This document shows positions 54,601 to 63,410 of a stretch of 64,000 bases of DNA, piece by piece. The notes below the pieces were generated by a model. It saw nothing but the letters and a program-made list of their open reading frames with translations, made no database searches and was not told the DNA's origin. The stretch covers positions 1 to 64,000 of the forward strand of contig JAGVYD010000013.1 of NCBI GenBank assembly GCA_018303405.1. The letters run 5' to 3'. Within the stretch, counting starts at the first letter, position 1; the number at the start of each line of letters is the position of its first letter. The DNA is from Candidatus Woesearchaeota archaeon. Its GTDB lineage: Archaea; Nanobdellota; Nanobdellia; Woesearchaeales; JABMPP01. A program made the position numbers and the translations under genes.

Positions 54601-54615
54601 GTTTGTCGCTTTTTG

Positions 54616-54779
54616 GGCTGTGTTGAAAATATTTGTTTTGGCACCATTAATGCGAGCGTCCAATCCTAATTAATTAACAAGCAAAGGAGATTGCAAGAGG
54701 AATTTGCTTTATCATTGCACACCTAAACACGCGAGCCGGTGCCAAAACCGAGGCGAAAGCCGAGATTTTCAACACAGCT
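54616..54779 (+). mobile_element. Mobile hairpin element, copy B (164 bp)
   Basis: Inverted ends 54616-54630 and 54765-54779 (GGCTGTGTTGAAAAT and its complement, terminal G-T) are abutted exactly by GCTTTTTG (54608-54615 and 54780-54787). The inner 11-bp stem is GTTTTGGCACC/GGTGCCAAAAC (54635-54645/54738-54748). Next comes GCGAGCGT paired with ACGCGAGC through tandem G.A (54652-54659/54729-54736). The central hairpin is AAGCAAA/TTTGCTT with a different loop, so this copy lacks the GGTTCCAGA-like loop of A, C and D. The last small hairpin is GGC-GAAA-GCC. Confidence 0.75.
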
Positions 54780-54834
54780 GCTTTTTGCCTCAAAAAACAA
54801 AGCTTTATATATCAATCATTATTTTTATAACGAT

Positions 54835-55401
54835 ATGGTTAAAAAATTATCAATAGAAAACGCACTCGAGCCATTTCTGGGCAGGCCGGGCGAGTCAATC
54901 CATCTGGCCAGCGTAGCCAGGGAAATCAACCAGCCTTACCCCACTGTTCGGCTCTGGTTGAACGAGCTTGCCGCTCGCGGCATTCTGGGAAAAAAGTTTG
55001 TCGGGAGGCTGACCACATATCATCTGAATCTTGGGCATCCCAATCTTATTGATTATCTGCTGGTGGCCGAGCAGCGCCGGCTGATTAGGAAGTGCACAGA
55101 TGACTTGTTGATGAGGGAAGCGGTAAAGCTTCTTCGCCAGGCACTGCCGGAAAACGCGCCCATTGTCATTTTTGGCTCTGCCACTGTTTCATTTAAAAAG
55201 GCAAATGATGTTGATTTGCTGGTAGCGGCCAAAATCAAAGAGCCTTCCATAAACGAAATCTCCGGCACCATAAACAAAAAAATCCACTTAATCAATGTCA
55301 CAAGCCTTGATGGTGTTTCCAGGCCGCTAAAGGGTGAAATTGTCAAGCATCATGCAATAATCAATGGGCATTATGGTGTTCTGAGGTGGATGCTATCGTA
55401 A
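54835..55401 (+). CDS. MNT-type nucleotidyltransferase with winged-helix N-terminus (pair 2)
   Basis: 188 residues from the ATG at 54835; a longer frame reaches into element B and is unlikely. A TATA-like GCTTTATATATC precedes it by about 25 bases. Winged helix in residues 1-70, then IVIFGSATVSFKKANDVDLLV (about 112-132) with the GS...DxD nucleotidyltransferase motif. It overlaps the HEPN-like gene that follows. Probably the antitoxin of a HEPN/MNT pair, with gene order reversed compared with 45108/45668. Confidence 0.8.
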   Translation: MVKKLSIENALEPFLGRPGESIHLASVAREINQPYPTVRLWLNELAARGILGKKFVGRLTTYHLNLGHPNLIDYLLVAEQRRLIRKCTDDLLMREAVKLLRQALPENAPIVIFGSATVSFKKANDVDLLVAAKIKEPSINEISGTINKKIHLINVTSLDGVSRPLKGEIVKHHAIINGHYGVLRWMLS

Positions 55402-55969: not shown

Positions 55970-57394
55970 ATGCGGCAAAATACAATAATAAGCATGATAT
56001 CTGCTTTGATAATTGCAGTATTGTTGACAGGCAGTGCCATGGCAATTTCCATGACGCCAGGCACAATTGAAGTGAAAGCACAGCTTGGCCAGCCAGCAAC
56101 TGCAAAAATTCTTGTATCCAATGAAGACACAACAGACATCCTCAATGTTCAGATGTCGCACACCGGCCTGAATGGGTTCATTGTATCATTCAGCCCGTCA
56201 TTCTTTGCTCTGCCTGCCAATTCCGGCAGGGAAGTTGGGATTACATTGACTCCGCCAGGCAATGCCGACCTCCAGGATTATTCAGGGCTAATCACTGCCG
56301 GGAATTCCAGCCTGTTCACTTCCAATACCATAATCGCATCTGTGAATGCAATGCTTTCAATTGAAAATGTCGATGTGAAGTTTGGCGACACAGAGGTCAA
56401 CAATATCAGGGAGGGGGAAATAATCAGCGCAGATGCCGAGCCAGGCATGCCGCTTGAATTCAAGGTGAGGCTGCGAAATGAATTTCCAACAGCAACCAGC
56501 TCTGACACAGGCCAGCTCAGGAATGTATTCTTCAGGGTCACAATAGTTGACCTCGGGGATGAGGGCGACATTGACCTTGAGTCAGAGGATTTTGAGCTTC
56601 CTATCCAGGATGCAAAGTCCAAAACGCTGTATTACACAGTCCCGTTAATGATTGAAGAGGGCAGCTATGATGTTGAGGTTTATGCAGAGGGAACAGACGG
56701 CGACGGCATAATCCACTCCGAGGCCTGGCAGCTCAGGCTGGACCTCAGCAAGGACGCCCATGATGTCAGGATACTCAATGAAGGGCTTTCAACTGCAATT
56801 GTTGACTGCACCCGCAAAACAGCGCTGGCATATGACCTGGTGAATGTCGGCAGCAGCGACGAGAGGCAGGTGTTTGCCAAAGTGGAGAACAGCGAGCTGG
56901 GAATCAGGCAAATTACAGGGCCTTTCATACTTGATGCAAACCTTGACTCGCCAATAAACAGCATACCACAAAGCTTCAGCCTCACAATCCCGCAAACCGC
57001 CAAGCCAGGAAAGTATCGCCTTGACCTGAGGGCTTATTATTTGACCAATCTTGTCAGCTCTGTGAAGCTGGTTGACCTCGAGGTCAGGAAATGCAGCACA
57101 GCAGGGCCTGAAGACACCGGCTCCGGCAGCCAGGATTCAGCGGGGCAGGAAGAGCCAGGCAGCACAGCACAGGAAAATGCCCAGCAGGGAACACAGGAAG
57201 AGGGCCTTTCCGAGCAGTTTCCAGGCATAAACCTGGATGATGCAGCAATCGCAGATGTGGTTGACACATCAGCAGTCCCGAAAGAAAATAATGGCAGCCT
57301 GAAATCATTGGTTGCCCTCGCAGGCCTTAACATTTTCATATTATTGGTCATCATTTTTGTCATTTACAGGCTTATTGCCTTTGTTCGAAAATAA
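55970..57394 (+). CDS. Surface protein with C-terminal membrane anchor
   Basis: 474 residues from the ATG at 55970. Signal peptide ending near SAMA, then several beta-sandwich domains with an Ig-like profile, a Ser/Gln/Glu-rich linker and a C-terminal membrane helix (about 445-470) with a basic tail. The first mature domain resembles bacterial/archaeal TPPP-like and alpha-galactosidase NEW3-type domains. The later domains match those of the next gene. Probably a wall or sheath protein. Confidence 0.65.
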   Translation: MRQNTIISMISALIIAVLLTGSAMAISMTPGTIEVKAQLGQPATAKILVSNEDTTDILNVQMSHTGLNGFIVSFSPSFFALPANSGREVGITLTPPGNADLQDYSGLITAGNSSLFTSNTIIASVNAMLSIENVDVKFGDTEVNNIREGEIISADAEPGMPLEFKVRLRNEFPTATSSDTGQLRNVFFRVTIVDLGDEGDIDLESEDFELPIQDAKSKTLYYTVPLMIEEGSYDVEVYAEGTDGDGIIHSEAWQLRLDLSKDAHDVRILNEGLSTAIVDCTRKTALAYDLVNVGSSDERQVFAKVENSELGIRQITGPFILDANLDSPINSIPQSFSLTIPQTAKPGKYRLDLRAYYLTNLVSSVKLVDLEVRKCSTAGPEDTGSGSQDSAGQEEPGSTAQENAQQGTQEEGLSEQFPGINLDDAAIADVVDTSAVPKENNGSLKSLVALAGLNIFILLVIIFVIYRLIAFVRK

Positions 57395-57509
57395 GGCTTC
57401 GAAAATAAGGCCATGGTCAATAAAAAACGTAACTACTGACCAATGCTAAAATATGCAAAGCTTTTTAAACAATCCGAGCTTTGCAATGCGTCCGGGGGTG
57501 CACTATAAA

Positions 57510-60290: not shown

Positions 60291-60456
60291 CTTTGCGCAA
60301 AAAAGGCTGTTGTGCCGCCAATTATGCGAAGCTAATGTTTAGCGTTGTCATGCAATTTTCGAGGTTCCAGATAGAAAATTGCAATTAAAAATCTGCTTTC
60401 AAGCTGAGCCGGCGGCACAGCCGAAGCGATAGCTGAGTCTGAGTTTTTGCACAGAG
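60291..60456 (+). mobile_element. Mobile hairpin element, copy C (about 166 bp)
   Basis: End arms CTTTGCGCAAAAA (60291-60303) and TTTTTGCACAGAG (60444-60456), imperfect. No clear flanking direct repeat, so it is probably older. The inner stem is GTGCCGCC/GGCGGCAC (60312-60319/60411-60418) plus GCTG/CAGC. GCGAAGCT pairs with AGCTGAGC through tandem G.A. The central hairpin GCAATTTTC/GAAAATTGC encloses GAGGTTCCAGATA (60352-60382). The last hairpin is AGC-GATA-GCT. It lies upstream of tyw3, in the opposite orientation to both flanking genes. Confidence 0.65.
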
Positions 60457-63115: not shown

Positions 63116-63181
63116 TCATTTGCCAGCTCTTGATAGATAGGTACCGATGCATTGGAATTCTGTGCATCATCCCATCATTCA

Positions 63182-63344
63182 GGCTCTGTCCAGAGACTTG
63201 GTTTTGGCATCAATTTTGTGAGACTTATCAATTCTTACATAAGGCATTTTTCGCGGTTCCAGAGAGAAAAATGCAATTTCTTCCTGGAGTTGAAGGCGAA
63301 CAGATGCCAAAACTCGAGCCGAAGGCGAGATTCTGGACAGAGCC
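63182..63344 (+). mobile_element. Mobile hairpin element, copy D (163 bp)
   Basis: Perfect 13-bp inverted ends GGCTCTGTCCAGA (63182-63194) and complement (63332-63344), abutted exactly by CATCATTCA (63173-63181 and 63345-63353). The inner 11-bp stem is GTTTTGGCATC/GATGCCAAAAC (63201-63211/63303-63313). GTGAG/CGAAC-type pairing with tandem G.A follows. The central hairpin GCATTTTTC/GAAAAATGC encloses GCGGTTCCAGAGA (63244-63274). The last hairpin is GCC-GAA-GGC. Best-preserved copy. Confidence 0.8.
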
Positions 63345-63410
63345 CATCATTCATAAACATTTTTATAGTCACTTGCCTTTTGAACTCCTACGGAATCAGA
63401 GGAGCCAACA

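Follow-up and report, generated by a model that had tools for sequence, protein, structure and literature searches.

Four hairpin elements lie in the window, by which we mean the whole 64,000-nt stretch of DNA analysed here. They probably represent a non-autonomous, MITE-like mobile element that has a conserved fold, integrates upstream of promoters and relies on machinery supplied in trans. Computational comparison showed that compensatory changes preserve a strand-specific fold in distant genomes, and that insertions fall immediately upstream of BRE/TATA promoters, at a spacing that hardly varies.

An earlier, sequence-only reading had noticed an 11-bp stem that keeps pairing while its sequence changes, and had attributed this to a folded RNA or a cruciform recognised by a protein. 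The observation was right and strong; the interpretation needs replacing. What escaped that reading is that the elements have transposed: they end in inverted repeats, are bordered by 9-bp target-site duplications and insert in a promoter-directed way.

Hairpin elements in the window

The four copies (A, B, C and D) were all on the + strand, with covariance-model scores of 87 to 107 bits. Copy B (GGCTGTGTTG...CAACACAGC, 163 bp) occupied positions 54616-54778, and the covariance model matched 54616-54779 at 94.3 bits. From the ends inward, the fold began with an outer stem, P1, of about 15 bp (14 bp in copy B, 54617-54630 with 54765-54778, 14/14 complementary), which constitutes the terminal inverted repeats and brings both element ends together. 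P2 followed, the 11-bp stem of the earlier reading, present at 54635-54645 (GTTTTGGCACC) and 54738-54748 (GGTGCCAAAAC) and supported by sequence and covariation. Inward of P2 were a 5' bulge, AATTnT, a helix, P2b, with GA facing GA (54652-54659, GC-GA-GCGT, and 54729-54736, ACGC-GA-GC, both assigned from GA/GA conservation), a variable middle and a central hairpin, P4 (54679-54709), which covaried in 96 copies from foreign genomes. A small hairpin, P3 (54749-54764, C-GA-GGC-GAAA-GCC-GA-G), which likewise carried tandem GA, separated P2 from P1 on the 3' side and had no counterpart on the 5' side. The outer stem and P3 extend the element beyond the part that had been recognised earlier.

Copy B was flanked by a left target-site duplication at 54607-54615 (CGCTTTTTG), 8/9 identical to the right duplicate at 54779-54787 (TGCTTTTTG). 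A TATA box on the + strand (TTTATATA, 54804-54811) lay 25 nt past the element edge, about one helical turn beyond the usual distance, and 31 nt before an ATG at 54835. Copy A lay at 1572-1736 and copy D at 63182-63344. Copy A had a 9-bp duplication (TTTCCTATA) at 1563-1571 and 1736-1744 and a TATA box at 1751-1758; copy D had one (CATCATTCA) at 63173-63181 and 63345-63353 and a TATA-like sequence (TTTTTATA) from 63360. Copy C (about 60296-60446, 92.2 bits) had a degenerate outer stem and no clear target-site duplication.

A search for the four stems quoted in the earlier reading located all of them on the + strand: at 1597 in copy A (GTTTTGCCATC / GATGGCAAAAC), at 54640 in copy B, at 60314 in copy C (GTTGTGCCGCC / GGCGGCACAGC) and at 63206 in copy D (GTTTTGGCATC / GATGCCAAAAC), with 91-92 nt separating the paired hexamers in every copy. 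The central hairpin had been said to vary in the same way. This was confirmed, each stem with its partner, for copies A (GCAGTTTTC), C (GCAATTTTC) and D (GCATTTTTC), but copy B carries a different central stem, AAGCAAA / TTTGCTT. Elsewhere in the window, an exact 14-bp tandem duplication (TTCGAAAATAAGGC) was seen at a gene end (57384-57411).

Covariation and strand specificity

In 51 copies from the source genome, 96.5% of 2,215 cells were paired and 37/44 pairs showed two-sided changes; there were 299 two-sided cells, compared to a shuffle mean of 82 and to 16-38 with a slid partner. The 96 foreign copies gave a similar picture: 94.6% of cells paired, two-sided changes in 43/44 pairs, and 1,052 two-sided cells compared to 302 shuffled and 139-234 slid. 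Because both alignments had been fitted to the model, they were checked in two ways. An alignment by MAFFT, which is blind to structure, retained 86 two-sided cells versus 7-17 with a slid partner. A tree-based test followed the logic of R-scape: 25 null alignments were generated by re-placing the substitutions on a FastTree tree. Of the 44 structural pairs in the foreign copies, 28 scored above all null values, and not one of the roughly 12,700 remaining column pairs did. The covariation thus withstood the alignment of more copies, the check by which the earlier reading had said it could be refuted.

Tandem GA/GA in P2b was present in 136/147 copies (47/51 own, 89/96 foreign). Where it was lost, five foreign copies had GA facing TC, and in P3 twelve foreign copies had TC facing GA; both combinations form ordinary Watson-Crick pairs. 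With tree-based covariation, retained GA motifs and the same fold in 28 genomes, the claim that pairing rather than sequence is under selection was upheld.

Well-paired columns held 71 G-U cells versus 23 A-C cells, a ratio of about 3:1 that is indicative, since cells share descent. Both this excess and the GA motifs tell the two strands apart, so that it is one defined strand, the one shown, that folds. Fold energy favoured neither strand; z-scores for the + strand as RNA were -2.3 to -5.0. A pseudoknot between the apical loop and the following strand is not claimed: its mean was 5.9 bp compared to 4.9 bp shuffled in the source genome, and 4.5 compared to 4.4 bp in the others.

Dispersal of the element

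With a blastn-type search and a covariance model trained on 14 near-identical copies, we placed the element at no fewer than 53 sites in the source genome, which comprises 1.6 Mb in 23 contigs; this is a lower bound, as a divergent copy (GGCGCTGTAGAAAATC, L193:3634-3796, G000:C14:63133-63295) was unlisted by the covariance model. The usual length was 160-165 bp, without coding sequence. Flanks matched over 9 bp at 8/9 or better in 63% of 147 places, versus 2% with exchanged flanks as a null. Because terminal inverted repeats and 9-bp duplications accompany dispersal in many copies, the copies are transposed elements. The element is short (about 163 bp), gene-less and multi-copy, has terminal inverted repeats, perfect ones included, and makes a fixed-length duplication; apart from a known parent, it satisfies the formal definition of a MITE.

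Subfamilies differed in sequence (GGCTTTGCCCG..., GGCTCTGTCCAG..., GGCTTAGTAG..., GGCTGTGTTG... and several single copies). Some copies took a 219-bp form with two extra hairpins inside the apical loop. A second hairpin repeat (TTGACA...TGTCAAGAACCACCGGTCAGA) was seen in the source genome at L006/L010 (G000:C9:265217-265521), at L009 and in the flanks of L015 and L017, and some element copies had an insertion of similar sequence in their apical loop. In one copy (L025, G000:C21:18643) the 5' outer stem was missing, yet a 9-bp duplication lay flush with the element, resembling an insertion truncated at its 5' end.

With a second covariance model, 28/145 genomes of the same order, from many families, proved to be carriers. 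When 378 genomes were sampled from the class, matches were confined to the same order. As far as searched, the element is restricted to this one archaeal order. A strict sequence match among named records was found in only one Candidatus Woesearchaeota MAG, and viral contigs had zero matches to the strict element pattern. An Rfam search returned nothing above the gathering threshold, and its low-scoring matches (GIR1, snoRNAs) were due to chance. The family is therefore MITE-like and absent from Rfam, and it has two unusual properties: conservation of structure and promoter-targeted integration.

End types recurred among several genomes. In G142 (L079, L106-L124), the outer 10 bp of P1 varied among copies and mostly still paired, while P2 did not differ among the 19 copies compared; two different end types were combined in one hybrid copy (L121). 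In G127 (L167-L176, L196-L204), about 20 elements with ends GGCTCTGTAGAAAATG had interiors of 199-536 bp. These interiors consisted of nested hairpins with recurring modules and shared the layout with a 3'-side hairpin as well as the TATA distance.

Insertion upstream of promoters

When flanks were aligned at the element edge, a sharp TATA-like peak appeared 15-19 nt outside, on either side. TTTAWA occurred at 13-18 nt in 68/125 copies, compared to 2/125 at a control distance of 60-65 nt; it lay on the 3' side in 30 copies and on the 5' side in 42. Flanks aligned on the TATA box proved to be archaeal promoters, with an A-rich BRE at -6 to -3, the TATA box itself and, at +27 to +32, an ATG/initiator, an arrangement like that of leaderless genes.

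In G127, the TATA box was exactly 15 nt away in 16/18 elements with the same ends and other interiors (one element being counted from both strands), the distance comprising the 9-bp duplication, 6 bp and then the TATA box. The near-fixed distance points to targeting, as selective removal of harmful insertions would not predict such constancy. Targeting is probably mediated by TFB/TBP.

Candidate mobilising enzymes

In the source genome, G127, G142, G091 and others, element-like ends enclosed no transposase and no autonomous copy came to light, which counts against the explanation we prefer. Orphan ends in the source genome were only relics, another copy or chance matches, and a search of relatives for GGCTCTGTAGAAAATG led only to more elements without genes, to relics or to chance neighbours, one of the latter being a methylase gene close to such an end (L167). 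As the assemblies are incomplete, a parent IS may be missing.

Several enzyme families were set aside as mobilisers. Transposase_mut (PF00872), of IS256, was absent from the source genome, as was PF03400, of IS1, which occurred in 6/145 genomes and only 2 carriers. DDE_Tnp_1 (PF01609) was likewise absent and showed no association in a joint model. The source genome had one lone Y1/HUH transposase gene, with no element and no inverted repeats in its surroundings; Y1 co-occurred weakly with the element (p = 0.009) and was not significant beside RT and IS6 in the joint model. In G078 and G125 (L188, L189), many IS1-like transposase fragments were seen at contig ends, with an apparent end GGAAGTGTTATC.

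Two families were associated with the element. IS6 (PF13610) co-occurred with it, 10/19 IS6 genomes being carriers (p = 4e-4), and reverse transcriptase (RT) genes were present in 16/28 carriers compared to 20/117 other genomes (p = 4e-5). The two associations were independent of each other in the joint model of 145 genomes. Because genomes share descent and some are simply rich in mobile genes, we treat both as leads and not as an identification. The RT co-occurrence is what was observed with respect to a SINE-like retroelement, whose RNA intermediate would be copied by such an enzyme in trans. IS6 was absent from the source genome, and the IS6 ends that were seen (GGGCAAAGTCAACT) are unlike those of the element. 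The source genome had two RT genes, at contig ends (L251:2-889 and L252:4126-5004); they are related, share an N-terminal part, run into the contig ends and are group II / UG-like by profile. Beside one of them was a long ATPase gene (L251:916-3747; PIN and PilT-like by eye), apparently interrupted by an intein.

Mechanism and alternative explanations

We favour a mobile element whose integration machinery would be supplied in trans and guided to promoters, probably via bound TFB/TBP. Its substrate may be a folded single strand, either ssDNA or RNA copied back; with such a substrate, pairing rather than sequence would be selected. That the folded strand is needed for mobilisation is suggested by an outer stem that joins the ends, by sequence that varies while pairing stays, and by the absence of any promoter position fitting a standard transcript. 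Against this dependence stand the fixed 9-bp duplication, typical of double-stranded DDE transposition, which needs no folded strand, and fold energies that favour neither strand. An ordinary MITE of an IS missing from the assembly would account for such duplications and for the terminal repeats, with a DDE transposase acting on double-stranded ends and the interior fold being a by-product or serving stability only. The end types common to several genomes and the co-occurrence of IS6 transposases are also in its favour. The interior (P2, P2b, P4 and P3), however, lies outside the terminal repeat, and its covariation extends over genomes from many families; a common interior would not be expected if MITEs had arisen separately from different IS. 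The IS6 ends that were seen also differ from the element's, and the source genome has no IS6. We consider an ordinary MITE unlikely, though it deserves serious weight.

The remaining explanations concern the fold itself. If the copies were a host non-coding RNA family, dispersed in the way of a mobile element and useful to the cell through the folded RNA, they would show the RNA-like covariation, tandem GA, G-U excess and fold-energy z-scores reported above. This reading would not readily account for copies that precede the TATA box in both orientations (30 in one, 42 in the other), a position from which the adjoining promoter does not transcribe the element. There was also no Rfam match, and unsystematic inspection revealed no conserved promoter of the element's own. 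The folded RNA of the earlier reading is thus without direct support as a discrete RNA gene, and a host function seems improbable. Template-switch (quasipalindrome) correction, which copies one arm onto the other, could produce compensatory change without selection for pairing, and the fast-changing but mostly paired outer 10 bp of P1 in G142, next to an invariant P2, are what it would leave. Such correction would also erase conserved unpaired parts, yet the AATTnT bulge, the tandem GA and the hairpin confined to the 3' side are all retained from one genome to another; we give it little credence. Long inverted repeats could extrude as a double-stranded cruciform and serve as a protein binding site, but a symmetrical cruciform should be indifferent to strand, whereas here the GA motifs are confined to a single strand and the ratio of G-U to A-C cells is three to one. 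This part of the earlier interpretation is highly improbable. For the favoured mobile element, the boldest version would be a new archaeal mode of transposition, in which TFB/TBP would bring an element without genes to promoters, its folded single strand (DNA, or RNA copied back) being recognised through its structure, and a 9-bp duplication would be left behind; we put this forward tentatively, as a possibility that could well prove wrong.

Comparison with known systems

Many structured intergenic hairpins and strand-specific folding are also features of REP/BIME sequences with RAYT (Y1/HUH) transposases, and the source genome has a lone Y1 gene. To our knowledge, REP mobilisation leaves no 9-bp duplication, and the duplications seen here rule against membership. 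Integron attC sites are folded single strands recognised by structure rather than sequence. For such sites one would expect tandem cassettes behind an integron integrase and no target duplication; the dispersed copies with 9-bp duplications, forming no cassette array, do not match that class.

Prokaryotic MITEs (Correia, ERIC and BOX; in archaea, those of Sulfolobus and haloarchaea) are likewise short and gene-less, with terminal inverted repeats, target-site duplications and many intergenic copies, and their transcripts are predicted to form stable stem-loops (PMC10969869). What sets the present element apart from known MITEs is that many families of one order share its internal fold, maintained by covariation, that it inserts ahead of BRE/TATA at an almost constant spacing, and that no parent IS was found. 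A literature search of partial coverage found no description of MITEs in DPANN archaea.

In targeting, the element is like retrotransposons that are aimed at transcription factors. Ty3 integrates at TFIIIB in a narrow window upstream of the promoter, near TBP/TFIIB-family factors (PMC8632968), and retrotransposons are known to target tRNA genes (PMC5006619). A narrow promoter-upstream window and a 'harmless' site in a compact genome are shared features. Those retrotransposons are autonomous and of LTR or LINE type, whereas the element described here is 165 bp, gene-less and archaeal and lies at promoters of protein genes; as far as tested, it appears unrelated to Ty3 though alike in targeting. 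If our reading is true, the element would provide a clear case of archaeal promoter-targeted integration, parallel to yeast Ty3/TFIIIB, in compact DPANN genomes where harmless insertion sites are rare. The near-constant 15-nt TATA distance makes targeting directly testable, and element copies mark promoters across uncultured genomes. Conservation of pairing, and not of end sequence, in a mobile element asks for an unknown enzyme, and if the folded strand is the substrate of transposition, the element would be more than a variant of the known MITEs.
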